Assembly (NCBI GenBank): GCA_018662005.1
Contig: JABJHA010000022.1
Location: 1 to 64,000, forward strand
Reading direction: 5' to 3'
Source of the DNA: Rhodospirillaceae bacterium
GTDB lineage: Bacteria > Pseudomonadota > Alphaproteobacteria > Rhodospirillales > JABHCV01
Length of the DNA stretch: 64,000 bases
The translations under genes were made by a program, and so were the position numbers. Below the pieces are notes generated by a model, which saw only the letters and a program-made list of their open reading frames with translations, was not told the origin of the DNA and made no database searches. Shown in pieces: positions 13,997 through 62,280 of this stretch (the first letter of the stretch is position 1; each line of letters starts with the position of its first letter).

Positions 13997-14090
13997 TTGC
14001 GCGTTTCCCCCGACGTGCTTAACTATACACATCATTAAAGATGGTCATTACCACTGATTTTTTTGAGTCAGTTTCAATTTGGAATCGAAA
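13997..14090. promoter_or_regulatory. Divergent promoter region of xdhA and the deaminase gene
   Basis: Ninety-four bp between two divergent starts must hold both promoters. It contains ACTGA (14053-14057) and TCAGT (14068-14072) as a short inverted repeat around the 11-mer GATTTTTTTGA, which recurs exactly at 19859-19869 in the puuD/LysR intergenic region. Confidence 0.4.
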
Positions 14091-14690
14091 ATGGATGTGC
14101 AACAACGCAAAATAACGACCCGAATGCTCGATGTAATGGAGCACGACATTGCCACCAAAACCCGTACCGGAGTCAGCGTTGGCAACAAGGTTTTCGGGGC
14201 AGCTATTTTGCTTAAAAGTGACCTTTCGCTGGTTATTGCAGGAACCAACGCAGAAACCAGCAACCCGCTTTTGCATGGTGAAATTTCAACTTTGCAGGCT
14301 TTTTATGAAATTCCCGACCAAGATCGCCCTGATACAAAAGATTGCCTGTTCCTGGCCACTCACGAGCCCTGCTCGTTATGCCTGTCGGCGATCACCTGGT
14401 CCGGTTTCGATAATTTCTATTATTTCTTTGGATATGAAGACACCCGCGACACCTTCAATATTCCCCATGACCTGAAAATCCTGAAAGAAGTCTTCAAGGT
14501 CGAAAACGGTGACTATGCGCGCCAAAACAGTTTTTGGCAGTGCCATGAACTGATCCACATGGTCGGACAGTGCAGCGGTGATGAAGGGGCGCGGTTGCGT
14601 GACCAGGTGGATCGTATCAAAAGCATCTATGATGACCTGTCGGCGACTTATCAGGTGCAGAAGGACGAAAGCGCGATACCTTTAAGTTAA
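14091..14690 (+). CDS. Cytidine/nucleobase deaminase-fold protein, substrate unknown
   Basis: A 199-residue zinc deaminase. The zinc and proton-shuttle motifs are LHGEIS (H62, E64) and THEPCSLCLSA (C94, C97), the standard HxE...PCxxC set. The C-terminal half (about residues 110-199) is longer than in cytosine deaminases or TadA and has WQCHELIHMVGQC. ATG 14091 is preferred to an upstream TTG at 14079. It is divergent from xdhA, so a purine or purine-derived substrate is likely (adenine, guanine or a ring-opened intermediate). GuaD already covers guanine, so this enzyme may supply adenine-to-hypoxanthine deamination; that is inference. Confidence 0.75.
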   Translation: MDVQQRKITTRMLDVMEHDIATKTRTGVSVGNKVFGAAILLKSDLSLVIAGTNAETSNPLLHGEISTLQAFYEIPDQDRPDTKDCLFLATHEPCSLCLSAITWSGFDNFYYFFGYEDTRDTFNIPHDLKILKEVFKVENGDYARQNSFWQCHELIHMVGQCSGDEGARLRDQVDRIKSIYDDLSATYQVQKDESAIPLS

Positions 14691-15626: not shown

Positions 15627-16127
15627 TCAAGCGTTGACGGTTTTCCAATCGGCTTCGGCAAAGTGATGCTCAACGCAGTCCTCGCCCTCCCCGCCCCGGT
15701 CAATAACCAGAAAGTCAGTATTATCGGCAAGAGCTACAAGCGGGTGGTGCCAGACACGGCGGTGAAAATTGACGCCTTGCGCCCCGTCACTGACAAAAGC
15801 CCGCATGGTCGCAGGATCCAGCGGATCACCGGGCAAGGCGACAATAATCAGAAACCGCGTGTCGCCCAGCGGCATGAAAAGCTGGCTCGACAAAGCATGA
15901 TATTCCAGCCGCTTGACCTGCAAAGGCATCGGCCACATGCGGGTGCGAAAAATATTGATCAAAGGGCGTCCGCCTTGACCCGCAACATCGATTTTGGCGA
16001 GGTCATGAAAACGCCTACACAGATCATCATTGATCAGATAATTGTCAGCACCGTCCGTCTGGATGACATCCCCGTACGGAGCAAAGGATTGACGCGTCAG
16101 TTCCCTGAGTTCAAGTTCCATAGTCAC
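15627..16127 (-). CDS. allA: Ureidoglycolate lyase
   Basis: A 166-residue protein of the AllA cupin-like family, which splits ureidoglycolate into glyoxylate and urea. Seen: LELRELTRQSFAPYGDVIQ at the start, INIFRTRMWPMPLQVKRLEYH in the centre, SQLFMPLGDTRFLIIVALP, and GVNFHRRVWHHPLVAL with the histidine pair of the active site. Length and motif order are normal. It overlaps allE by 4 bp, so the two last steps of allantoin breakdown are coupled. Confidence 0.92.
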   Translation of the reverse strand: MTMELELRELTRQSFAPYGDVIQTDGADNYLINDDLCRRFHDLAKIDVAGQGGRPLINIFRTRMWPMPLQVKRLEYHALSSQLFMPLGDTRFLIIVALPGDPLDPATMRAFVSDGAQGVNFHRRVWHHPLVALADNTDFLVIDRGGEGEDCVEHHFAEADWKTVNA

Positions 16128-18425: not shown

Positions 18426-18540
18426 TTATTTGCCTTGAATGCCTTACCTTAGAAACGCTAACAAGAAGTAGACATAAAATCCGGCTTCTCCATAGCCTTT
18501 GTTTTTTTGAAAGTGTTTTTATCATTTTGGAGCGTGCACC

Positions 18541-18915
18541 ATGAACGATGCCAAGTCCGCCGATGGTTTCCTGACGACACATGTCCTGGACACCATGTCC
18601 GGTCAACCGGCCCAGGGTGTACGAATTACCTTGCGCAGCACTGAACAGTTAAATGCTCCCCTTCTTGCCGATACAGTGACAAACACCGATGGACGCTGCG
18701 ACGCCCCGTTGCTTGAAGGCGAGGCTTTTCGTGCCGGCGGCTACCAGCTTGAATTTCACGCTGGCGACTATTTTCGGGCCAACAATGTTGATCTTGGCGA
18801 ACCGGCATTCCTGGATGTGGTGCCCTTGCGCTTCGGAATTTCCGATCCAACCTCACATTATCACGTGCCGCTGTTGATTTCCCCTTACGCCTTTTCGACT
18901 TACCGGGGCAGTTGA
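18541..18915 (+). CDS. uraH: 5-hydroxyisourate hydrolase
   Basis: A 124-residue transthyretin-fold enzyme that hydrolyses 5-hydroxyisourate to OHCU. Seen: LTTHVLDTMSGQPAQGVRI with the N-terminal catalytic histidine H14, and the C-terminal HYHVPLLISPYAFSTYRGS, whose YRGS ending is the family signature. No signal peptide, so it is cytosolic like the downstream enzymes. It reads away from the PuuE fusion gene across a 115-bp promoter region. Its 3' end overlaps the 3' end of the opposing LysR gene by 16 bp. Confidence 0.95.
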   Translation: MNDAKSADGFLTTHVLDTMSGQPAQGVRITLRSTEQLNAPLLADTVTNTDGRCDAPLLEGEAFRAGGYQLEFHAGDYFRANNVDLGEPAFLDVVPLRFGISDPTSHYHVPLLISPYAFSTYRGS

Positions 18916-23065: not shown

Positions 23066-23120
23066 AATAATGATGTGTCATAAAAGCATCAATATAACTT
23101 TCAACAGAGAGGATGAGTAA

Positions 23121-23435
23121 ATGGCTATTACCGTAACAGTTTCATACCCCAATACGCCCGGTTCCCGCTTTGATATGGATTACTATCTGGGTGCCCACTT
23201 CGATTTGGTCGGTAAATTGTGGGGCCATAAATTATTAAGCGCCCGCGCCATCAAGGGAATAGGCACACCCGACCCCGATACACCGGCCCCAAATCAGGTG
23301 GTCGCGATCCTTGAACTTGAAAGTGTTGAAGACTTACAAGCCCTTATCGCTGAGCATGGCGATGAAGTTCTTGGTGATATCCCAAACTTTACAGACGTCA
23401 GCCCGGCCATTCAAATTAGCGAAAACCTGGGTTAA
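23121..23435 (+). CDS. EthD-family small protein
   Basis: A 104-residue ferredoxin-like dimeric alpha-beta barrel protein. VSYPNTPGSRFDMDYYLGAHFDLVGKLWG contains the EthD pattern of a tyrosine-rich YxxxH motif after an N-terminal strand. The C-terminal IPNFTDVSPAIQIS is also typical. EthD proteins are found near oxidation operons, but their chemistry is mostly undefined. It has a good GAGAGG ribosome site and lies 55 bp after the MFS gene, with a short terminator after it. Confidence 0.85.
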   Translation: MAITVTVSYPNTPGSRFDMDYYLGAHFDLVGKLWGHKLLSARAIKGIGTPDPDTPAPNQVVAILELESVEDLQALIAEHGDEVLGDIPNFTDVSPAIQISENLG

Positions 23436-23436
23436 A

Positions 23437-23457
23437 AGCTCCCATTCGGAGTTTTTT
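23437..23457 (+). terminator. Weak intrinsic terminator after the EthD gene
   Basis: A short stem AGCTCC/GGAGTT (one G-U pair) with loop CATTC and a following run of six T (23452-23457), directly after the EthD stop codon. Confidence 0.45.
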
Positions 23458-23536
23458 GCTGCGTCATGGAACTTTTTCCTTATCCCCTGCGTCTATACCC
23501 CTAAGCCCATGGAAGTTAGATGCAAAAAAAGGATAA

Positions 23537-23641
23537 ATGAACGTGACATACGCAACCACACACCCCAGACCAGGAATGCTGGCCGTCGCTATCGCCATGC
23601 TGATTGTTTGTGCGCGCCAGTTGACCGGTTCGAGCCGGTAA
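23537..23641 (+). CDS. Possible 34-residue hydrophobic peptide
   Basis: ATG 23537 follows AAAAGGA at good spacing. The product starts MNVTYATTH and has one hydrophobic stretch (GMLAVAIAMLIVCA), then a short basic end. It ends 6 bp before the stop of the opposing deacetylase gene. It may be a small membrane peptide, the stub of a decayed transporter gene, or chance. No family recognised. Confidence 0.25.
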   Translation: MNVTYATTHPRPGMLAVAIAMLIVCARQLTGSSR

Positions 23642-23647
23642 GGTGCT

Positions 23648-28581: not shown

Positions 28582-28972
28582 TTTTCATCCACAAAGTTTT
28601 TCGTTATCCAAGAAATCTGGAATTTTCATATCACTTAAAAATCAAGATGGGGAATGATAATTAACAAGCGTAACTATTCTTGAATTGTTCTAACTTTACT
28701 TACTTGTAAAATAACGAATAAAAACAACCGTGTAGAAAGATATATAAATAATGTGATGTTTTAATAATGCCAATTCGGGGCGTTAATCTTCAATTTATTT
28801 GAAAGTAAAAAGTTTTTACCGTTTAAGAAAATTTTTCATCGTGATACTGGTATTAAACTTAAGTGTATTGCTAAGCTTACAAGCTTGGAAATAGTCTGAT
28901 GAACGTAAACATACGCACGGACGACAATAATCAATAAGACGCAACAAACTGCGAAACCAGGGAGATCTACAA
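28582..28972. promoter_or_regulatory. Divergent AT-rich regulatory region
   Basis: A 391-bp non-coding region between two oppositely transcribed operons, the longest in the catabolic part of the window. It holds a palindrome GTAAAAA-G-TTTTTAC (28805-28819) and a tandem pair AAGCTT-AC-AAGCTT (28873-28886), either of which could bind a regulator. The livK ribosome site is the GGGAG just before ATG 28973. No regulator gene is adjacent and no riboswitch fold was recognised. Confidence 0.5.
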
Positions 28973-37268: not shown

Positions 37269-37289
37269 TTTTTACAGGAACAAAACATC

Positions 37290-37637
37290 ATGACCATTCA
37301 ACGATTTGAAACCGGCCCGCGCATGAGTCAGGCCGTCGTCCACAACGATACAATCTATCTGGCCGGTCAGGTTGGAATTCCCGGTGAAAGTGTCGCCGAA
37401 CAAACAACAACCATTCTGACGAAAATTGATAAATTGCTTGCCGATACCGGCAGCCACAAATCAAAAATCCTGCAGGCAACCATCTGGATGGCATCAATGG
37501 ATGATTTTGCCGAGATGAATGCCGTCTGGGATGCCTGGGTTGAACCCGGAGAAGCCCCGACCCGCGCCGCCGGTGAGTCAAAACTAGCAACCCCGGATTA
37601 TCTGGTCGAAGTGATCATCGTCGCCGCAAAAGATTAA
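37290..37637 (+). CDS. RidA-family protein
   Basis: A 115-residue YjgF/YER057c/UK114 protein. MSQAVVHNDTIYLAGQVG and QATIWMASMDDFAEMNAVWDAWV are family motifs; the substrate-binding arginine that ends the usual GxxPxRxxxE segment is seen in APTRAAGESKLA. RidA proteins hydrolyse reactive imines and enamines left by PLP enzymes and D-amino-acid oxidases. It is the last gene of the Liv-dgc operon, as fits imine detoxification there, and overlaps the opposing glutamine-amidotransferase gene by 4 bp. Confidence 0.9.
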   Translation: MTIQRFETGPRMSQAVVHNDTIYLAGQVGIPGESVAEQTTTILTKIDKLLADTGSHKSKILQATIWMASMDDFAEMNAVWDAWVEPGEAPTRAAGESKLATPDYLVEVIIVAAKD

Positions 37638-47842: not shown

Positions 47843-47858
47843 TGGAATCTCAATTCCA
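47843..47858 (+). promoter_or_regulatory. Start-codon hairpin of aepX
   Basis: TGGAAT-CTCA-ATTCCA forms a perfect 6-bp stem between the AGGGAGA ribosome site (47836-47842) and the ATG, using the A of the ATG. Linear spacing of about 16 nt is long, but folding would bring the site close to the start. Confidence 0.4.
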
Positions 47859-48901
47859 TGTTTATAAAGATGAAGTCATTTAAAATTTCAAAACTGATTG
47901 CGACAACGGCTGCCCTCGCTTTCGTAGCAAGTGTCGGATTCAAGGCCCATGCGGAAACCCTGACCGTCTACACGGCGGTTGAGGCTGAGGATCTGAAAAA
48001 ATACGCCAAACGCTTTAATGAAGAGCACCCCAGCATCGAGATCAAATGGGTCCGTGATTCCACCGGTATCGTGACAGCCAAGTTGCTTGCCGAAAAGAAT
48101 AACCCAAAAGCTGACATCGTTTGGGGCCTTGCCGCGACCAGCCTGATGCTACTCGGTAACGAAGGAATGCTGGAGCCTTATTCTCCAAAAGGCGTTGAAA
48201 AACTTGATCCCAAATTCCGCGATTCAGCCAATCCGACAAGCTGGACCGGCATGGATGCCTGGGTTGCCTCAATTTGCGTTAATACGGTTGAAGCCGCCAA
48301 GTACAGCCTGCCAACACCGACTAAATGGCGTGATCTGCTGAACCCGGTCTACAAAGGCCATGTCATTATGCCGAACCCGAATTCATCTGGTACCGGCTTC
48401 CTTGACGTTTCATCATGGCTGCAATTGTTTGGTGAAGGCGGCGGCTGGACCTTTATGGACGGCCTACATGCAAACATCGCCCGTTATACTCATTCCGGTT
48501 CCAAGCCTTGCAAACTGGCGGCGGCTGGTGAAATTCCCATTGGTATTTCATTCGCCTTCCGTGGCGCAAAGTCGAAAGCCAAAGGCGCTCCGCTGGATAT
48601 CGTTATTCCCGAAGAAGGAATTGGTTGGGATATGGAAGCAACCGCCATCATCAAGGGCACCAAAAAGATGAGTGCTGCCAAGACTTTGGCCGACTGGTCC
48701 ATTTCCAGAAAAGCCAATGAAATGTACAACGAAGGCTACGCTGTTGTTGGTATGCCTGGTGTCGCCAAAGCGGTCGAATTCTTCCCACCTGAAGTCGCCA
48801 CCAAGATGATCGACAACGACTTCGCATGGGCTGCCAAGAACCGCAAGCGCATCCTGGCCGAATGGCAGGGTCGCTACGATTCAAAATCTGATCCCAAGTA
48901 A
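47858..48901 (+). CDS. aepX: 2-aminoethylphosphonate ABC transporter substrate-binding protein
   Basis: A 347-residue periplasmic binding protein of the iron/polyamine-like class. The signal peptide ends KAHA-ETL near residue 32. LTVYTAVEAEDLKKYAKRFNEEHP and IKWVRDSTGIVTAKLLAEKNNP contain the PhnS2/AepX patterns (given here as blocks). Ferric-binding proteins share the fold, but the tyrosine pair of the iron site is not evident, and the phnWX neighbours settle the ligand class as 2-aminoethylphosphonate. It is followed by a terminator-like hairpin before the ATPase gene. Confidence 0.87.
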   Translation: MFIKMKSFKISKLIATTAALAFVASVGFKAHAETLTVYTAVEAEDLKKYAKRFNEEHPSIEIKWVRDSTGIVTAKLLAEKNNPKADIVWGLAATSLMLLGNEGMLEPYSPKGVEKLDPKFRDSANPTSWTGMDAWVASICVNTVEAAKYSLPTPTKWRDLLNPVYKGHVIMPNPNSSGTGFLDVSSWLQLFGEGGGWTFMDGLHANIARYTHSGSKPCKLAAAGEIPIGISFAFRGAKSKAKGAPLDIVIPEEGIGWDMEATAIIKGTKKMSAAKTLADWSISRKANEMYNEGYAVVGMPGVAKAVEFFPPEVATKMIDNDFAWAAKNRKRILAEWQGRYDSKSDPK

Positions 48902-48929
48902 AGTCTTACTTGCGAGCAGAAACAAATAT

Positions 48930-48966
48930 GAAGGACCGGGTGTATCCCCGGTCCTTCTTTTGTTTT
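48930..48966 (+). terminator. Intrinsic terminator or attenuator between aepX and aepV
   Basis: GAAGGACCGGG and CCCGGTCCTTC form a perfect 11-bp stem with a 6-nt loop, followed by TTTTGTTTT. It is canonical in form; the ATPase and permease genes downstream probably depend on read-through, giving excess binding protein. Confidence 0.82.
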
Positions 48967-49003
48967 AGGGTAGGTCAATAAAAATCAGCGTAAGGGGGAT
49001 GTC

Positions 49004-50104
49004 TTGTCTGAGTCTACCGAGCCATATTTACAAATTCGTGACGTCACCAAGATGTTCGGGGAATTTACCGCCCTTAAGAATGTCTCACTGGAAATTTTTG
49101 AGGGCGAATTTGTTTGCTTTCTGGGGCCTTCGGGTTGTGGCAAAACGACCCTTCTGCGCGCCATAGCAGGTCTTGATATTCAGACATCGGGTTCGGTTGA
49201 GCAAGGCGGAAAGGACATTTCCAATCTGCCACCTTCGGAGCGGGATTTCGGTATTGTCTTCCAGTCTTACGCGCTTTTCCCCAATCTCAGCATTAGCCGC
49301 AATGTTGGGTACGGGCTTGAAAACCGAAAGGCCCCGAAAGCTGAAATCAGCGCGCGTGTCAGCGAACTTCTGGAACTGGTCGGTATGCCTGAACAGGGCC
49401 AAAAATACCCGGCCCAGCTTTCAGGTGGTCAGCAACAGCGCGTCGCCCTGGCCCGGGCCCTGGCAACCAAACCCGGACTGTTACTCCTTGATGAACCTTT
49501 AAGCGCCCTGGACGCCAAGGTCCGCGTTCATCTGCGCCACGAAATTAAACAGCTTCAGCATAAACTTGGGGTGACGACGATTATGGTTACCCATGATCAG
49601 GAAGAAGCCCTGACCATGGCCGACCGCATCGTCGTAATGAATGAAGGCTCCATTGATCAGGTAGGAAGCCCGCTGGAAATTTATCGTCGCCCGACAAGTC
49701 CTTTCGTTGCTGATTTTGTCGGCACCATGAATTTCCTTAAAGCCAGCGTCAAGGCAATCGACAAAATCCGGATCGGCGACGTTGATGTTCGTCTGGGAAC
49801 CCCGATGGAAGATCCGCCAATCGGTTCATCTGTCACAGTCAGCATCCGCCCCGAGGACGTCATCACCCGTGACATCGAAAGCGGGGCCGATAACATTATC
49901 GAAACCATTGTTGTTGACCTGGAGTTTTTAGGCTCCTTTTACCGGGCGATGCTGAAGCTCAATGATGAGGAAGGCTCCATATTGCTGGCCGATTTCTCGA
50001 TCAACCTGGTCCGCGATATTGGCATTGAAGAAGGCAAAGCGATACAGGTTCGCCTGCCCGCCAGCCGACTGAGGGTGTTTACTGACAGCGAGGCCGCGCA
50101 ATGA
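49004..50104 (+). CDS. aepV: 2-aminoethylphosphonate ABC transporter ATPase
   Basis: A 366-residue ATPase starting at TTG 49004 behind AAGGGGGA. Walker A GPSGCGKTT (41-49), signature LSGGQQQRVALARALA, Walker B LLLLDEPLSALDAK, switch VTHDQEEAL. Residues about 240-366 form the TOBE-type regulatory domain (VSIRPEDVI). The layout is that of the polyamine/iron/phosphonate (PotA-like) ATPases and matches the PhnT2 group. It overlaps the fused permease gene by 4 bp. Confidence 0.9.
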   Translation: MSESTEPYLQIRDVTKMFGEFTALKNVSLEIFEGEFVCFLGPSGCGKTTLLRAIAGLDIQTSGSVEQGGKDISNLPPSERDFGIVFQSYALFPNLSISRNVGYGLENRKAPKAEISARVSELLELVGMPEQGQKYPAQLSGGQQQRVALARALATKPGLLLLDEPLSALDAKVRVHLRHEIKQLQHKLGVTTIMVTHDQEEALTMADRIVVMNEGSIDQVGSPLEIYRRPTSPFVADFVGTMNFLKASVKAIDKIRIGDVDVRLGTPMEDPPIGSSVTVSIRPEDVITRDIESGADNIIETIVVDLEFLGSFYRAMLKLNDEEGSILLADFSINLVRDIGIEEGKAIQVRLPASRLRVFTDSEAAQ

Positions 50105-51801
50105 GTGACGTGGCGCTAGCAAGCATTGCCGCCATCAAACCCAAGCTGAGCCGTGACGACAGGATCATGCGTGGCTTTATCGTCATGGTCGGGGTGTGGA
50201 TGGTGGTCGCCGTGCTTTTGCCACTGTATTTCATGCTGTCGAAAAGCACCGAAAACCATGATGGTGATTTTATCGGCCTCGCCAATTTCCAGGAATATTT
50301 TTCGACCCCGGCATTATTCTATTCCATCGAAAACAGTTTCTTTATCGCCATCGTTTCAACGCTCATTACCATTACTCTTGCCTTCCAGTTCGCTTATGCC
50401 CTGACCCGCAGCACGATGTGGGGTAAAGGTTTTTTTAAAACCATCGCCTTGATTCCTATTCTGGCCCCTTCACTGCTGCCGGCGATTTCATTCGTCTATT
50501 TTTTCGGTCAGCAAGGTGTGATCAAGGGGTTACTGTTCGGCAACGAAATCTACGGTCCCATCGGCATTATCATGGGCGAGGTTTTTTACACCTTCCCGCA
50601 CGCCCTGATGATATTGATTACCGCCCTTTCCACCGCTGACGGGCGCCTGTATGAAGCAGCGCTTTCCTTGCGCGCCAGCCGTATGAAGATTTTCTTCACC
50701 GTTACCCTGCCCGGTATCAAATACGGCCTGATCAGTGCCATCTTCGTTGTCTTCACTCTGGTTATTACCGACTTCGGTATTCCCAAGGTCATCGGCGGCC
50801 AATTCAATGTTCTGGCCACCGATATCTATAAGCAGGTTATCGGCCAACAAAACTTTGAAATGGGCGCTGTCGTCAGCGTTGTCCTGTTGATCCCGGCCAT
50901 CCTTGCCTTCATCGTCGATCGTATCGTGCAACGCAAACAAGTCGCCCTGTTGACCGCCCGCGCCGTTCCTTACGAAGCCAAACCGGCACGTGCTTTCGAC
51001 ACGTTCATGTTCGTTTATTGCGCCTTCATTGGCTTCCTTATTGTGTCCATCCTGGGCATGGCGATCTATGCCTCGTTCGTCACCTTCTGGCCCTACAACA
51101 TGGCCTTTTCGCTGACCAATTATGATTTTGATGTGATGGATGGCGGGGGCTGGGATTCGTTCTCCAACTCGATCACCATGGCTCTTTATACGGCCGTTAT
51201 CGGCACCACCATTATCTTTACCGGTGCCTATATGGTTGAAAAGGCCAAGGGGTTTGGGGCGGTGCGTGGTTCTATCCAGTTTCTGTGCATTCTGCCCATG
51301 GCGGTTCCGGGCATGGTTTTGGGGTTGGCTTATATTTTCTTCTTTAACCACCCGGACAATCCGTTGAACTTCATCTACGGGACCATGGCGATCCTGGTGA
51401 TCTGTACCATTTCCCACTTTTATACGGTCTCGCACATGACCGCGATGACGGCCCTTAAACAAATGGACCCGGAATTTGAAGCCGTGTCTGCATCCCTGAA
51501 GGTGCCGTTCTTCAAGACTTTTATCCAGGTCACGGTGCCGGTTTGCCTGCCGGCCATTCTGGATATCTCGATCTACCTGTTCGTCAACGCCATGACGACG
51601 GTCTCGGCGGTGATTTTCCTATATTCCACAGAGACCAATCTGGCATCCGTTGCCGCGCTGAACATGGATGATGCCGGTGATGTCGCCCCTGCGGCTGCCA
51701 TGTGTGTAATGATCGTCTTTGTTTCAGCAACGGTGCGTATCTTCCACGCTATTTTCACCCGTGGCATGGCGCGTCGATCACAGCTTTGGCGACAACGTTA
51801 A
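50101..51801 (+). CDS. aepW: 2-aminoethylphosphonate ABC transporter permease, fused two-domain
   Basis: A 566-residue permease with about 12 membrane segments, containing two copies of the binding-protein-dependent transport fold. The first EAA-type loop is YEAALSLRASRMKIFFTVTLPG; the second is FEAVSASLKVPFFKTFIQVTVP (each a single coupling loop). The single fused chain replaces separate PhnU and PhnV subunits, as in AepW. The N-terminus is cytoplasmic and charged. It completes the importer. A 92-bp gap with the second operator-like element separates it from phnW. Confidence 0.88.
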   Translation: MSDVALASIAAIKPKLSRDDRIMRGFIVMVGVWMVVAVLLPLYFMLSKSTENHDGDFIGLANFQEYFSTPALFYSIENSFFIAIVSTLITITLAFQFAYALTRSTMWGKGFFKTIALIPILAPSLLPAISFVYFFGQQGVIKGLLFGNEIYGPIGIIMGEVFYTFPHALMILITALSTADGRLYEAALSLRASRMKIFFTVTLPGIKYGLISAIFVVFTLVITDFGIPKVIGGQFNVLATDIYKQVIGQQNFEMGAVVSVVLLIPAILAFIVDRIVQRKQVALLTARAVPYEAKPARAFDTFMFVYCAFIGFLIVSILGMAIYASFVTFWPYNMAFSLTNYDFDVMDGGGWDSFSNSITMALYTAVIGTTIIFTGAYMVEKAKGFGAVRGSIQFLCILPMAVPGMVLGLAYIFFFNHPDNPLNFIYGTMAILVICTISHFYTVSHMTAMTALKQMDPEFEAVSASLKVPFFKTFIQVTVPVCLPAILDISIYLFVNAMTTVSAVIFLYSTETNLASVAALNMDDAGDVAPAAAMCVMIVFVSATVRIFHAIFTRGMARRSQLWRQR

Positions 51802-51893: not shown

Positions 51894-53018
51894 ATGCCCA
51901 GTCCAACAGGTGATCCGTTCCTGCTCACCCCAGGCCCCCTGACAACCGCACCAGAAACCAAGCAAGCCATGTTGCACGACTGGGGATCTCGTGATGCCGG
52001 TTTTATTGAAACCAATGCACGGGTACTCAGTCGCATCGTCGCTATTGCCAATGCCGCGGACAGCCATGTTTGCGTACCGGTGCAAGGCAGTGGCACTTTT
52101 GCCGTCGAGGCGACCCTTGGAACCCTGATCCCCAAGCAGGGTAAATCCCTGTTGCTGGTCAATGGAGCATACGGTCATCGCATGGCCAAGATTCTTGATA
52201 TCACCGGGCGCGACTATCAAATCCTTGAAACGCCGGAAGACACGCCGCCCAATGCAGATGATGTGGATGTCATTCTTGCTGGAAACAGCGACATCGGCCA
52301 CGTCATCATGGTTCACTGTGAAACCACATCGGGCATCCTAAACCCGGTCGAGGAAATAGCCGCTGTCGTCGCCAACCGTGGCCGCGCCCTGATTATCGAC
52401 GCCATGAGCGCCTTTGGCGCCATTGAACTTGATGTTAAGAAAATCCCCTTCGAGGCCGCCATGGCATCGTCCAACAAATGCCTGGAAGGTGTGCCGGGCA
52501 TGGGTTTTGCCATCATTTCCAGGCAGGCGCTGGAAAAGGCCAAAGGCAATGCCCATTCCCTGAGCTTGGACCTTTACGATCAATGGCAAGCCATGGAAAA
52601 AACCAGCCAGTGGCGTTTCACCCCGCCGACACATGTCATTTGCGCTTTTGACAAAGCCCTCGACCTCTATGAAGCCGAAGGTGGACTTGCCGGACGCGGC
52701 GGACGCTACCGGGACAACTGCTGCATTCTTATCGATGGGATGGCCGAAATGGGCTTCAAGACCCTTTTATCAGGCAATCTGCAAGCCCCGATCATCGTTA
52801 CCTTCCACATGCCTGCCGATCCGAAATTCGACTTCCAGACATTCTACAACAAACTAAAAGACAAGGATTACGTTATCTATCCCGGCAAATTGACCGTTGC
52901 TGACAGTTTCCGAATGGGCTGCATCGGCCAACTTGGCGAAACAGAAATGAAAGGCGCACTGGAAGCCGTGCGCGAGACCCTAACCGAAATGGGCGTCACA
53001 ACCGGCGCCCCTGCTTAA
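51894..53018 (+). CDS. phnW: 2-aminoethylphosphonate:pyruvate aminotransferase
   Basis: A 374-residue class V PLP enzyme that moves the amino group of 2-aminoethylphosphonate to pyruvate, giving phosphonoacetaldehyde and alanine. LLTPGPLTTAPETKQAMLHDWGSRD is the family start (as LLTPGPLTT and HDWGSRD), IIDAMSAFG has the cofactor aspartate D169, and SSNKCLEGVPG has the PLP lysine K195. Strong AGGAG ribosome site. It is followed after 19 bp by phnX. A perfect match to the usual length and motif order. Confidence 0.95.
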   Translation: MPSPTGDPFLLTPGPLTTAPETKQAMLHDWGSRDAGFIETNARVLSRIVAIANAADSHVCVPVQGSGTFAVEATLGTLIPKQGKSLLLVNGAYGHRMAKILDITGRDYQILETPEDTPPNADDVDVILAGNSDIGHVIMVHCETTSGILNPVEEIAAVVANRGRALIIDAMSAFGAIELDVKKIPFEAAMASSNKCLEGVPGMGFAIISRQALEKAKGNAHSLSLDLYDQWQAMEKTSQWRFTPPTHVICAFDKALDLYEAEGGLAGRGGRYRDNCCILIDGMAEMGFKTLLSGNLQAPIIVTFHMPADPKFDFQTFYNKLKDKDYVIYPGKLTVADSFRMGCIGQLGETEMKGALEAVRETLTEMGVTTGAPA

Positions 53019-53037: not shown

Positions 53038-53886
53038 ATGTCTTACGATCCAAATTACGTTTACCAGCGCGGTTACCGAGGCAAGGTCAAGGGTGTCGTC
53101 CTTGACTGGAGCGGCACCATTGCCGATGCCTATGTTCTGGCCCCCGCCGTCGTCTTCGTCGAAGCCTTTAAAAATCAGGGTGTTGATGTTTCCATGCTCG
53201 AAGCACGCGGCCCCATGGGTCTGCGCAAGGACCTGCACATCAAGGCGATGAGCCAGGACCCGGTGATTAGCGAACGCTGGAAGAAAATTCACGGCAAAGC
53301 ACCAAACCAGAAGGACGTTGACCGCATGTTCGCCGATTTCGTGCCCATGCAGCTTAAAGTCCTGAAGAAGTACACCACCCTGCTTCCCGGTGCGGCCAAG
53401 TGCTCCAAGGAGCTAAAAAAACGCGGCATCATGATTGGCAGCTCGACCGGCTTCCTTAGGGCCATGGTCGAAATCCTCGCCAAGGACGCCAGAAAACAAG
53501 GCTTTGTTATCGATGCCACCGTCGCCGGTGACGATGTTGAACACGGCGCCAGGCCAAAACCGTTTATGGTCTTTAAAAACATGGACCTGATGGACGTCCA
53601 CCCGGTGCAGTCCATCGTCAAGGTTGATGACACCACGTCAGGCGTCGGTGAAGCGCTTGAAGCCGGTTGCTGGGGCGTCGGCGTGTCGCTTTACAGTAAC
53701 TACATGAACATCAACTCACTGGCCGAAGCCAAGAAGATGCCGAAAAAGGAAATTGCCCGTCGCAATAACCTGACCAAGGAAATTCTGCAACAAGCTGGCG
53801 CTCACTACGTCGTCGACAGCATTGCCGAATTGCCGAAAGTCATTGACGACATCAACAAGCGTCTGGCCCGGGGCGAACGACCTTAG
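53038..53886 (+). CDS. phnX: Phosphonoacetaldehyde hydrolase (phosphonatase)
   Basis: A 282-residue HAD enzyme that cleaves the carbon-phosphorus bond of phosphonoacetaldehyde to acetaldehyde and phosphate. Motif I is LDWSGTIAD (nucleophile D23; usual form DWAGT). The Schiff-base lysine unique to phosphonatase is K64 in GPMGLRKDLH. Motif IV reads VKVDDTTSGVGEALEAG. The C-terminus is normal. It completes the PhnWX route; the acetaldehyde must be removed, perhaps by a dehydrogenase elsewhere. Confidence 0.94.
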   Translation: MSYDPNYVYQRGYRGKVKGVVLDWSGTIADAYVLAPAVVFVEAFKNQGVDVSMLEARGPMGLRKDLHIKAMSQDPVISERWKKIHGKAPNQKDVDRMFADFVPMQLKVLKKYTTLLPGAAKCSKELKKRGIMIGSSTGFLRAMVEILAKDARKQGFVIDATVAGDDVEHGARPKPFMVFKNMDLMDVHPVQSIVKVDDTTSGVGEALEAGCWGVGVSLYSNYMNINSLAEAKKMPKKEIARRNNLTKEILQQAGAHYVVDSIAELPKVIDDINKRLARGERP

Positions 53887-53911
53887 GCGTCGTCAAACCT
53901 TCTGACCCGAT

Positions 53912-53946
53912 AAGGGCGGTTCTATCCAGAGCCGCCCTTTTCATTT
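53912..53946 (+). terminator. Intrinsic terminator after phnX
   Basis: AAGGGCGGTTC (53912-53922) pairs with GAGCCGCCCTT (53929-53939) through one G-U pair, loop 6 nt, followed by TTCATTT. It closes the phnWX unit. Confidence 0.75.
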
Positions 53947-54013
53947 ATGGCCTTAGCCTTGAAATTCTGCGACAAAGCTAGCTGCATCCGTTCAAAGTTA
54001 AGGTGGAAATGCA

Positions 54014-55099
54014 ATGCAGACAAAAAAAATGTGCGGCGTTCTGTTGAACGGCCACGGCGGCTTTGAACAACTTGAATATCGTGAAGACATCAGCATTCCC
54101 GTAGCAGGACCGGGCGAGGTGCTTGTCGCGGTTGGCGCAGCCGCCGTCAATAACACCGACATCAATACCCGCATTGGCTGGTATTCAAAATCTGTAAGCG
54201 TTGAGACGGCAGCCAGCGATGGCACAGGAGACGTTGAACAGGACGCCACCTGGGGCGGTGACCCGCTCACCTTCCCGCGCATTCAGGGCATTGATGTGTG
54301 CGGACGTATTACCGCCGTCGGGCAAGGTGTCGTCCCCGCAAGAATCGGCGAGCGAGTCCTCATCGAACCCTGTTTACGCGATGTGGATCAGGACGGGGCC
54401 TACACGGCCCGCTTTTTTGGTTCAGAATGCGATGGCGGGTTTTCACAATTCACCACGGCTCCTGCGGTCCATGCTCATAGGATTGACAGCCCACTAGGTG
54501 ACGTCGAGTTGGCAAGCTTTCCATGTTCCTATTCAACCGCTGAAAACATGCTAACCCGCCTGTCACTTAAAGAAGGCGAGACGGTTTTGATAACCGGCGC
54601 TTCAGGCGGTGTCGGTTCGGCGGCTGTTCAACTGGCAAAAAGGCGCGGCGCACGGATCATCGCCGTTTCCGGCCCCGCCAAGGCGGGTGAGGTCAGGGCG
54701 CTGGGGGCCGATATGATCATTCCCAGGGGCGACGATCTTACCAAAGCCCTTGGCACCGATCAGGTTGACGCAGTCGTCGACATTGTTGCCGGGCCAGACT
54801 GGTCACAGTTGCTGGAGATTATGAAACCCGGTGGCAGATACGCGGTTTCCGGCGCCATCGCAGGGCCAATGGTGGAGCTTGATGTGCGCACCCTTTACCT
54901 GAAGGACCTCAGCTTTTTTGGCTGCACCATCCTGGAACCGGGCGTCTTCGCTAATCTTATCGGTTATATCGAACGTGGAGAAATCAAGCCAGTTGTTGCG
55001 AAAACCTATCTCCTGCGGGATATCGTCACGGCCCAAAAGGATTTTCTGGACAAAGCACACACCGGCAAGCTTGTTCTTGACGTGCCGCCTTACAATTAA
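54014..55099 (+). CDS. Zinc-type alcohol dehydrogenase/quinone reductase (MDR superfamily)
   Basis: A 361-residue medium-chain dehydrogenase. N-terminal catalytic domain: AAVNNTDINTRIGWY, IQGIDVCGRITAVG. The nucleotide domain has VLITGASGGVGSAAVQLAKRRG and ALGADMIIPRG. The catalytic zinc cysteine of classical alcohol dehydrogenases is not clear, since NNTDIN replaces the CxxD motif, so it is closer to quinone reductases. The 127-bp gap with a terminator suggests its own promoter. It may act on a phosphonate-linked aldehyde or be unrelated. It converges with the AEC gene with a 4-bp overlap. Confidence 0.82.
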   Translation: MQTKKMCGVLLNGHGGFEQLEYREDISIPVAGPGEVLVAVGAAAVNNTDINTRIGWYSKSVSVETAASDGTGDVEQDATWGGDPLTFPRIQGIDVCGRITAVGQGVVPARIGERVLIEPCLRDVDQDGAYTARFFGSECDGGFSQFTTAPAVHAHRIDSPLGDVELASFPCSYSTAENMLTRLSLKEGETVLITGASGGVGSAAVQLAKRRGARIIAVSGPAKAGEVRALGADMIIPRGDDLTKALGTDQVDAVVDIVAGPDWSQLLEIMKPGGRYAVSGAIAGPMVELDVRTLYLKDLSFFGCTILEPGVFANLIGYIERGEIKPVVAKTYLLRDIVTAQKDFLDKAHTGKLVLDVPPYN

Positions 55100-56038
55100 A
55101 GAGGTGAAAACTGGCTGGCCAGATACAACAGCAATGGAATGCTTAAGAATGAAAGCGCCGTCTGCACGGTGACGGTAGCCGCGTAGAGTTCCGCGTCGCC
55201 ACCCATCTGGCGGGCCAGCAAAAATCCATTCATCGCCGTCGGCACCGCAGCGCAGACGATAACGGTCTGAAACGCCATCCCGGTGACGCCGAAAACCACC
55301 GCCCAGATGGTGACAAAAACAGGCATGGCGAAAAGTTTCATGACCACACCCAAAAGCACATCGCGGGAAGGTTTCAGGGCATGACGAACCCTGAGCCCCG
55401 CCCCAACGCACAACAACCCGGCCCCCAGTGCAGCCCATCCCAGCAGGTCGAGCAGGGTCATGATCGGCTCCCACACAGGAATTCCCAGCACGTTGATCAA
55501 CAGGCCGCTAACACACCCCCAGATCAGCGGATTAAACAAAACCAGCCTGGCGACCCTCTTCAAGGGTGGGCGCTCTGACGAGGCAAAAGTGGCAAGAACC
55601 AGAACATTTTCAAAATTAATAATAGGCACCATCACCGCAAGGGCGACGGCGACAATGGCGACGCCCGTACCACCGAACAGCTTCAGGATAATCGCCAGCG
55701 CAATAAACCCGTTCCAACGGGTGCTGACCTGAAAGATGGACGTGTACGCAGGCCCCTGCATGTTCCAAAACCGGTAGAGCACAGGTTTGAGGACAAGCAT
55801 CACCATCAGCATGGTCAGGACGGCAAGCAACATGGTCGCCACGACACCTGAAAGCGGGACACTGCTTAAGTCCGCCTTGATCAGGGTTTCTGCCATAATT
55901 GCCGGAAAAAAAAAGCCAGAAACAAACCTGTTCAATACCTGGCCACTTATCCTGCGGAACGATATCGCGCTTGCGCAACAACAAGCCCAGGCCCACGAGT
56001 GCAAAAACCGGCAAAAGAATCTCGAAGACAATGCCCAT
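55096..56038 (-). pseudogene. AEC-family transporter, frameshifted in a homopolymer
   Basis: The start frame from ATG 56038 encodes the normal auxin-efflux-carrier N-terminus (MGIVFEILLPVFALVGLG, then QDKWPGIEQVCFWLFF). The family continuation (PAIMAETLIKADLS, later NFENVLVLATF and TAMNGFLLARQMGG) is in another frame. The switch is at nine A on the plus strand (T9 on the coding strand), 55906-55914. Eight T would restore one frame of about 313 residues. The product would be a ten-segment carrier for a small carboxylate. It is a real mutation, a phase-variable tract or a sequencing error. It is the last gene of the GMC-HAD-DMT-PbfA operon. Confidence 0.85.
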
Positions 56039-56048
56039 TGGCTTGCTC

Positions 56049-57413
56049 TTATGCCTCTTCGGCGATGCAAGCTTCGAGAATATCCAGCGCCTGGTCCATT
56101 TCCTGGGTGGTTATGATCAACGGTGGCGTCAGGGTCAGGACGCTGCCCATGGTGGTTTTAAAGTTCAGGCCCTTTTTCAGAGCGCGATAGAGGATGCGGT
56201 CGGCGGCGGCCATGGCTGGGGCCTTGGCTTCAACGTCTTCAACCAGATCAAGCCCCATCACCAATCCTATACCGCGCACATCGCCGATGACGGGATGGCG
56301 ATTTTTCATGTCGTTCAGACGCTCCAATGCATGAGCGCCAACCCTGGCCGCATTTTCGACAAGGCCCTCGTCTTCAATAATGTCAATGGTCGTTAGCGCC
56401 GCCCGGCAGGTCACAGGGTTTTTCTCGTGGGTGTAGTGACCAAGGGCGCGATCTTCAAGGACATCCAGTTCAGGCCGGGTGATCATCGCCGCAATGGGCA
56501 GAATGCCGCCACCGAGCGATTTGCCAAGGGTCAGAATATCGGGAACAGCATCAAAATGATCAGAGGAAAACATCCGCCCGGTTTTACCAAGGCCATTTGG
56601 TATATCGTCAAAAATCAACAATGCGCCATGGTCATTGCAAGCCTCGCGAACGGACTTCCAAAATCCCGGCGGAGGCAGGTAGGGTACAGAGCGTACAGGT
56701 TCGGCGATAACGGCTGCAACATCGCCTTCCTTCTCCAGAACGTAACGAACCATTTCGGCGCAGGTCATCTTGCAGACCGACAGATCGGGCCCTGCGTAGC
56801 CATAAGGGCAGCGGTAACAGGAAAACGGCGCGACATGCTCTGTCCCTGAAAGCAGAGGTCCGGCGGGACCTGAACGGAACAAGGACTCGCCGCCAACACT
56901 GGCTCCCCCAAAACCGGCCCCGTGAAAAGCATCCCAGAACGAAATGGTCTTGTGGCGACCGGTTGCGGCGCGGGCTAGTTTCAGGGCCATTTCATTAGCG
57001 TCCGACCCACCTGTCGAGAACAACACCTTGCTTAATCCCTTTGGCGCAATGCTTGTCAATTTGGCGGCAAGGTCGACTGCCGTCTGATTGGTAAAACGCC
57101 GGGGAGCAAAGGATAGGTCGTCCATCTGATCTTTAAGGGCCGCGATCAGGCGTTTGTTTCCATAACCAATGTGGTGGACATTATTGCCATGAAAATCCAT
57201 GTAGCGGTTACCATCGGCGTCCTCAAGCCAAATGCCATCGGCCTTGGTGATGGCGGCCAGACAGGGAGTCGAGAGGGATTGACGCAGGAAATGATCGGCA
57301 TCTTCAGCAAGCAGCTTTGCCGATTTTCCATCAGCTACGCTACGCGACCATTCTGCCCGTCCGGGACTTAAATTGCTGTCCCCTTCGCTGGGATGAAGAA
57401 TATCTTTACCCAT
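56049..57413 (-). CDS. Class III PLP enzyme, probable (R)-1-hydroxy-2-aminoethylphosphonate ammonia-lyase
   Basis: A 454-residue class III aminotransferase-fold protein. The PLP lysine is K298 in LTLGKSLGGG, the cofactor aspartate lies in LLIFDDIPNGLGKTG, and the phosphate site is FSTGGSDANEMALKLARAA. MDFHGNNVHHIGYG and the FDDIPNGLGKTG segment differ from ordinary omega-aminotransferases (DEVQTGFGRTG) and recall PbfA, the lyase that turns 1-hydroxy-2-aminoethylphosphonate into phosphonoacetaldehyde for phnX. Its location beside the phnWX cluster supports this, but a true aminotransferase is not excluded. It lies 9 bp after the DMT gene. Confidence 0.72.
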   Translation of the reverse strand: MGKDILHPSEGDSNLSPGRAEWSRSVADGKSAKLLAEDADHFLRQSLSTPCLAAITKADGIWLEDADGNRYMDFHGNNVHHIGYGNKRLIAALKDQMDDLSFAPRRFTNQTAVDLAAKLTSIAPKGLSKVLFSTGGSDANEMALKLARAATGRHKTISFWDAFHGAGFGGASVGGESLFRSGPAGPLLSGTEHVAPFSCYRCPYGYAGPDLSVCKMTCAEMVRYVLEKEGDVAAVIAEPVRSVPYLPPPGFWKSVREACNDHGALLIFDDIPNGLGKTGRMFSSDHFDAVPDILTLGKSLGGGILPIAAMITRPELDVLEDRALGHYTHEKNPVTCRAALTTIDIIEDEGLVENAARVGAHALERLNDMKNRHPVIGDVRGIGLVMGLDLVEDVEAKAPAMAAADRILYRALKKGLNFKTTMGSVLTLTPPLIITTQEMDQALDILEACIAEEA

Positions 57414-60725: not shown

Positions 60726-61307
60726 TCAAGTTATATCGTCAGGGCTATCAAAATCCCTCAGAACACCTTCATCTGTGCAGCTGACTTCGTACACCTGATC
60801 TTTAAATGTTGTCATCAAATCCCTGGCGCCCCTGTCCCCGGATAATTGCAGAATATCGGAAAAACAAGAGCGCGGCCAGAGTACCGGATTGCCCCTGCGC
60901 CCCTGACAAACCGGCACGCAAATCATGCGGCCCCGAGCGTCCACAAAGGCATCAATCAGGGCGTTAAGGGTATCAGCATGGAGCATCGGCATATCGGCAA
61001 GTAAAATGGCCGCACCGGCTGTCTGTTCATCAAGTGCTGTGATGCCCGCTACGAGAGATGTCGATAATCCATCTTCAAAATACCGATTGTGAACGATTTT
61101 GACATCGATCCCCTCAAGGGCATTTGAAATGGCGTCGTTATCATAACCTGTTACAACAATTGTTCGCCCTGCCCTGCTCGCAACTGCTGTCTGGGCAACG
61201 TGGCAAATCACTGGTTGACCACGCCACTCCATAAGCAGTTTATTAACCGCCCCCATCCTGCGTGAGGTGCCACCCGCCAGAATAATGGCGGTGACAGGGC
61301 TACTCAT
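60726..61307 (-). CDS. mocA: Molybdenum cofactor cytidylyltransferase-like protein
   Basis: A 193-residue nucleotidyltransferase from ATG 61307; an upstream ATG at 61412 is inside the xdhC frame. AIILAGGTSRRMGAVNKLLMEW carries the NTP-binding LAGGxSxRMGxxK motif (as LAGGTSRRMG), VVTGYDND and LLADMPMLHADTLNALID the metal site. MocA adds CMP to molybdopterin for xanthine-dehydrogenase-family enzymes. It overlaps the xdhC gene by 8 bp, the usual pairing. Confidence 0.87.
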   Translation of the reverse strand: MSSPVTAIILAGGTSRRMGAVNKLLMEWRGQPVICHVAQTAVASRAGRTIVVTGYDNDAISNALEGIDVKIVHNRYFEDGLSTSLVAGITALDEQTAGAAILLADMPMLHADTLNALIDAFVDARGRMICVPVCQGRRGNPVLWPRSCFSDILQLSGDRGARDLMTTFKDQVYEVSCTDEGVLRDFDSPDDIT

Positions 61308-62280
61308 GTTTACCGTTACCGACGGCGATGATTTCAGCCAGGATCGAAACGGCAATTTCTCCGGGTGACTTTCCACCAATATCCAGCCCGACAGGACCGT
61401 GCAGACGTTCAAAATCTACCTCGGCAAACCCTTGCGAGCGCAATCTTTGCAGTCTTGCCGCGTGGGTTTTCCTGCTGCCAAGGCAGCCAATGTAGTAAGC
61501 GTCTGACTTCAATGCCGCCACCAACACCGGATCATCAAGCAAGGGATCGTGAGCCAGGGCGACGACGGCTGCCCAGTTATCAAGGGCGATGTGATCAACA
61601 GCCATTGCCGGGCGGTCGGTGATGATGGTGACGCCGGGCAGACGTTCCGGTGTCGCGAATTTAGGCCGTGGATCAATAACCGAAACATGAAAGCCGATAG
61701 CTGCGGCCATGGGGGCCAGGGTCTGTGCTATATGAACGGCCCCGACGATGACAAGGTTTCGGGGTCGTGCGTAAACTTTCACAAACTTGCTGCCAATCGA
61801 ACCACTGGTTCCGTGCTTAAGAAGAAGACGGGCATCTGAAAGTTTTTGATCGTCAAGATCACCCTCAAGGTTATCGTGATCAAGCAGTGCCGTCTTCCCG
61901 CTTTGTGTATCGACAACGCGGGCAATGGGTTGGCTGTCTCGTAGTTTTTCCAGCATTGCCCGCTCCGGGCAGCGCTCGACAAAAACTTTTATGTCGCCAC
62001 CGCAAGCAAGTCGCACTTCACGCGCCATCTCATCGCTGACACCGTACTCAAGATTAAGCACACCGCCATCGGCAATGATGTCAATGGCTTCGGAAACAAC
62101 GAAACTTTCGATACAACCGCCTGAAACAGAACCGGCAAAATCGCCTTTGTCATTGATGATTAACTGCGCGCCAACCGGGCGCGGTGATGATCCCCAGGTA
62201 CTGACGACTGTTGCCATGGCAAGGGTATGCCCCTGCTCTAACCAGTCGAGGGCTTGCTGAAGAATTTCGGAATTCATCAA
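61300..62280 (-). CDS. Second XdhC-family molybdenum cofactor insertion protein
   Basis: A 326-residue XdhC/CoxI protein. STWGSSPRPVGAQLIIND and FAGSVSGGCIESFVVSEA form the CoxI-type N-terminus, with a GGC cysteine absent from the other copy. LVIVGAVHIAQTLAPMAA is the Rossmann segment, with VGAVHI rather than the usual GxGxxG. PDxx-like VIDPRPKFATPERLP and YIGCLGSRKTHAARL follow. It differs from XdhC at 9143, so probably serves a second molybdoenzyme not in this window. Starts 6 bp after the ggt stop. Confidence 0.88.
   Translation of the reverse strand: MMNSEILQQALDWLEQGHTLAMATVVSTWGSSPRPVGAQLIINDKGDFAGSVSGGCIESFVVSEAIDIIADGGVLNLEYGVSDEMAREVRLACGGDIKVFVERCPERAMLEKLRDSQPIARVVDTQSGKTALLDHDNLEGDLDDQKLSDARLLLKHGTSGSIGSKFVKVYARPRNLVIVGAVHIAQTLAPMAAAIGFHVSVIDPRPKFATPERLPGVTIITDRPAMAVDHIALDNWAAVVALAHDPLLDDPVLVAALKSDAYYIGCLGSRKTHAARLQRLRSQGFAEVDFERLHGPVGLDIGGKSPGEIAVSILAEIIAVGNGKHE

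Follow-up and report, generated by a model that had tools for sequence, protein, structure and literature searches.

Is the run of nine A residues (T9 in the coding sense) at which an auxin efflux carrier (AEC) gene of this Rhodospirillales genome changes reading frame a switch, an early step of gene loss, or an error in the consensus? The window analysed here, a stretch of 64,000 nucleotides with a GC content of 53%, comes from contig C22 of a draft assembly of 3.5 Mb in 53 contigs (G000), and the run lies in an aminophosphonate-degradation locus with the following features, given in window coordinates:

47858..51801, plus strand: phnS2, phnT2 and phnU2, 2-aminoethylphosphonate ABC importer genes (profile match)
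51894..53018, plus strand: phnW, 2-aminoethylphosphonate--pyruvate transaminase (profile match)
53038..53886, plus strand: phnX, phosphonoacetaldehyde hydrolase (profile match)
54014..55099, plus strand: zinc-type alcohol dehydrogenase gene, convergent with the AEC gene, with no such ORF at the corresponding locus of the relative G001 (profile match)
55096..55905, minus strand: AEC carrier gene, 3' part; lies in the next frame, which stays open as far as the TAA at 55096-55098 (ORF listing; PF03547, 57.2 bits)
55616..55618, minus strand: stop codon met by the original frame past the run, giving a 140-aa truncated product (ORF listing)
55906..55914, minus strand: A9 (coding sense T9), where the AEC gene shifts from one reading frame to the next; T8 in the sister (L039/L010)
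55915..56038, minus strand: 5' part of the AEC carrier gene, from the ATG at 56036-56038, residues 1 to 41 as far as the run (140-aa ORF at 55616-56038; 96% to query residues 1-46; sister alignment)
56049..57413, minus strand: pbfA (NF049939, 660.7 bits, cut-off 525)

The AEC gene extends on the minus strand from the ATG at 56036-56038 to the TAA at 55096-55098. The frame opened by that ATG shifts at the A9 run and ends at the stop at 55616-55618 as a 140-aa ORF, and a second frame is open from 5' of the run down to the TAA; joined with eight T, the two parts encode 313 aa free of stops, the same length over which the T8 gene of the sister is open. The original prediction, which had placed nine A exactly at the frame change and held that removal of one base restores a complete carrier, is confirmed on both counts. 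The 3' frame scores 57.2 bits with PF03547 (Mem_trans; cut-off 25.7), the sister protein and that of Aestuariispira score 88.4 and 73.8 bits, which places the protein in the AEC family, and the first frame alone gave no Pfam match at E 0.001. Among NCBIfam models, TIGR00946 (2a69; auxin efflux carrier) is the best for the three proteins scanned (window, sister and Aestuariispira), with scores of 49.8, 75.8 and 76.0 bits that all lie under its cut-off of 246.05. Restart of translation downstream of the shift was considered and set aside: an ATG at residue 48 of the joined frame follows soon after the run, but no Shine-Dalgarno-like sequence was seen ahead of it by eye, and the product would presumably, given the topology that we assume, lose the first membrane segment.

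The run taken alone is no surprise: A9/T9 occurs once in the window, against an average of 2.22 over 100 dinucleotide shuffles (at least one in 84 of them), and it is not over-represented; what goes beyond chance is the exact match of its position with the frame change. An AEC search in 100 genomes, our own included, gave some match in 86, with a close homologue only in G003, the sister (82%; same genus, 67% complete), and a next best match of 39% outside the window genome and G003. The sister gene, on contig JADHSW010000162.1 of a Rhodospirillales MAG (L039; identical to G003:C7), reads GGC-TTTTTTTT-CC at the homologous site, i.e. T8, and the T run is the sole indel in the alignment of the two genes. 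The AEC gene of Aestuariispira insulae (55%; L040) has CTG TTC TTC CCG at the site, the run being absent, and among the 77 of 79 relative loci that cover the segment, T8 occurs only in L010 and L039, which are the same sister record, the other 75 having T runs of 1 to 7. For the codons CTT TTT TTT the joint chance from codon usage is about 0.06, and the T8 of the sister, found despite near-saturated synonymous change, is too weak an argument for selection on the tract.

The rest of the gene is without other decay, as had been predicted. Apart from the single indel, the joined frame is free of stops, and dN/dS between window and sister is 0.071 overall, 0.076 before the run and 0.069 after it, with synonymous sites near saturation; for the same pair, PbfA (269 codons) gives 0.041 and PhnW 0.114. 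Amino-acid changes placed with Aestuariispira as outgroup are balanced between the two branches (15 window-only, 12 sister-only and 31 unresolved; two-sided p 0.70). Given the low dN/dS and the balance of 15 versus 12 changes, the AEC gene was under constraint until very recently, or is so still. An intact orthologue in a relative is thus paired with a disabling indel here, as in a recent pseudogene, and a long-dead pseudogene is ruled out by the constraint and by the lack of further stops, other indels being likewise zero. The dichotomy put forward at the outset, that the change is either recent or not real, was right.

The nearest relative at the locus is G001 (same genus, 99% complete), whose PbfA is 91.4% identical to that of the window (82% for G003) and which shares with the window the order phnW, phnX, pbfA, EamA carrier and HAD hydrolase; an ABC permease and a partial GMC oxidoreductase flank its locus. 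New here is the observation that G001 holds only a short AEC relic beside pbfA. The gap between its phnX and pbfA is 182 bases (L160 3630-3811; G001:C152:6500-14335) and contains, in the right place and direction, a match to AEC residues 247-313 at 43% identity (tblastn E 3.7e-7 in a two-locus search), the DNA alignment of which has large deletions, including an internal one of 90 bases. The 301 bases around the run, from the 5' part of the AEC gene, had no DNA match in G001, no AEC closer than 35% identity was found in that genome, and no alcohol-dehydrogenase-like ORF was found between its phnX and pbfA. Because G001 keeps only this relic, the AEC carrier is dispensable in this group. The T9 of the window is not simply the shared start of the loss in G001, since a gene dead since the split of the two (pairwise dS 0.47-1.0 over five genes) would be expected to have gathered 6 to 14 new stops and none is seen; by stops alone, up to 22-47% of the branch since that split could have passed without function.

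The reading that we prefer, at a probability of slightly above one half, is a recent one-base slippage from T8 to T9 in the gene of an AEC carrier that this lineage can do without. Observed on its side are the run at the frame change, the T8 and intact gene of the sister, the constraint elsewhere in the gene and the near-deletion in G001. On this reading some or all of the population would truly carry T9, which would most likely have arisen by replication slippage from T8; the carrier would be cut short, with 44 native residues followed by 96 shifted ones, and its gene would have begun a loss that in G001 is almost finished. Should T9 be real, the gene stands at or near the outset of its loss, and one genus contains both the intact gene (G003) and its almost finished loss (G001). 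A sequencing or assembly error would leave the same trace, a gene perfect but for one frameshift, and that at one of the longest runs; the locus shows either a base-calling error or the very recent loss of a carrier that is dispensable. It is ordinary in kind, as a single indel in an environmental genome is.

An error of sequencing, PCR or assembly consensus at the nine-base run, the real gene being T8 and intact, is possible, though we lean against it. It fits the lack of decay elsewhere in the gene, the T8 of the sister and the draft state of the genome, and singleton frameshifts are often errors or indels; in the accessible text of PMC3711429, singleton frameshifted genes are attributed to a likely indel mutation or sequencing error, and one singleton class is expected to consist of sequencing errors. 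However, a real loss is plausible because the gene is already nearly lost in G001, and other runs of the same assembly speak against a general failure at such sites. A/T runs of at least nine bases occur at 12 places in G000 (13 overlapping matches), eight of which read as intergenic or 5'-leader (L002, L003, L004, L008, L145, L146, L147 and L148). The four that read as intragenic are the AEC run and three others, all in frame: the run of L006, midway along a long ORF, tests the assembly strongly, and those of L001, about 15 codons past the likely start, and L005, a few codons from the stop, are weak tests near gene ends. Exact A8/T8 runs number 145, of which the first 30 listed, from contigs C1 to C4 and not a random sample, were scored; ten lie within an ORF whose score exceeds 5 to either side of the run in one frame, and by reading none of the 30 has a gene interrupted at its run, a test in which short segments can be missed. 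Evidence within the assembly leans to a real T9, without proving it.

Two broader surveys accompany these counts. The 48 window genes were drawn from a list of open ORFs and are open by construction, which is not evidence of intact genes; they tile 55,838 of the 64,000 bases, and nine gaps longer than 250 bases remain, one of them the AEC gene. Three others contain open genes with Pfam matches (14079-14690, 15627-16127 and 60726-61412), the first 2149 bases of the window hold only ORFs of 118 aa or less, and the remaining four gaps are 18426-18899, 23066-23647, 28582-28972 and 37269-37633, where a small broken gene would be missed. A codon-score frameshift scan over the window and 68 other G000 loci (202,183 bases) was weak, recovering 14 of 39 planted insertions without locating the AEC shift at the run; it gave three hits, at window 9191 (46 bases before a stop, beside a G7), window 55165 (near the AEC 3' end) and L106:469. 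Those at L106:469 (G000:C4) and window 9191 flag possible same-strand frame changes, which may be ordinary gene overlaps.

Runs of C/G of at least eight bases occur at 26 places in G000, 19 of which were only scored; no broken gene was seen at the seven that were read (L129, L121, L122, L139, L127, L130 and L135), which lie at gene boundaries or ends. In L129, a ten-base G run at about 1501-1510 (G000:C15, about 165596) encodes the C-terminal glycines of a protein ending in VAGGG, which we take to be MoaD-like and which adjoins a gene that we take to be MoaE-like; a one-base slip in this run would alter the end of the protein.

It is unlikely, in our estimate, that T9 is real and the protein partly rescued by RNA polymerase slippage on U9, making the gene a 'pseudo pseudogene'. 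Such slippage on a nine-base A/T run could restore some carrier (PMC1088944, PMC3017870), and the lack of decay in the AEC gene would agree with it. According to the accessible text of PMC1088944, nine A/T is the length at which selection against runs shows in many bacterial genomes, and 'pseudo pseudogenes' with 9A/9T slippage have been described (Baranov 2005). The AEC gene shares with these a nine-base run at the frame change, but its run length is not conserved in the relative. Frameshifted genes of Blochmannia, perhaps rescued by transcriptional slippage, are likewise affected by a single indel in a poly-A/T run and not unusually accelerated, as far as the accessible text of PMC3017870 goes; these genomes, however, belong to AT-rich endosymbionts and have 114 to 153 intragenic polyA tracts of at least nine bases (PMC3017870), whereas here the window GC is 53% and four intragenic runs of at least nine bases were read in the genome. 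Programmed frameshifting is rejected, since neither run length nor frame change is conserved: the sister has T8 in frame, and Aestuariispira is without the run.

That the tract is a contingency locus, at which advantageous changes between T8 and T9 would switch the carrier on and off, we regard as very improbable, and the slipped-strand phase variation for which the original prediction had called the run a classic site is rejected as the best reading. Both genus members in which the gene persists have the run, though surrounding synonymous sites differ (the joint chance of about 0.06 given above), and known phase-variable genes, which likewise carry a mononucleotide run at the switch point, include transporters in the accessible text of PMC3711429. 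Yet these are only two sequences; a run of at least eight bases occurs in no other relative examined, and a tract kept at the switch point across homologues was not found among the 77 relative loci. A functional switch is unsupported because the tract is not maintained outside the pair, is not over-represented in the window and sits in a gene nearly deleted in G001. Genes of MutS type (PF00488, 991-aa open frame) and MutL type (PF08676, 653 aa, open) are also present in the genome. A pattern scan of viral contigs for the site with variable run length and a literature search for phase variation by mononucleotide or poly-A frameshift in Alphaproteobacteria both returned no match. Also very improbable is a real, polymorphic T8/T9 on/off switch of a carrier in the aminophosphonate-degradation locus of an environmental Rhodospirillales relative, in which slippage of RNA polymerase on U9 would supply 'off' cells with a little full carrier.

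The AEC gene lies 3' of pbfA, in one locus with phnS2, phnT2, phnU2, phnW and phnX, and it adjoins pbfA on the sister contig too (L039, 1845-5745), where phnW is 75% identical to that of the window. Among the 79 AEC loci, for many of which the flank examined was only 1.5 kb, L010/L039 (the sister) was the sole one with a pbfA-like match near the AEC gene; L077 had a weak class-III match at 30%. According to the accessible text of PMC8154272, R-HAEP is degraded by PbfA, which is found repeatedly in clusters of this kind; that text and that of a second PbfA paper, as far as available, speak of transporter genes without using the words 'auxin', 'permease' or 'carrier', and a search of the literature accessible to us for an auxin efflux carrier together with aminoethylphosphonate matched only Paenibacillus genome papers. 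The carrier beside pbfA may belong to aminophosphonate use, and yet is dispensable. The stretch between the convergent blocks (window 53887-56048) is labile in the genus, G001 being without the alcohol dehydrogenase and holding AEC only as a relic. On the sister contig, the ORFs past AEC and pbfA, beside phnW, are presumably phnY- and phnA-like, going by names that we assign from their sequence, and the hydrolytic branch seems to vary within the genus.
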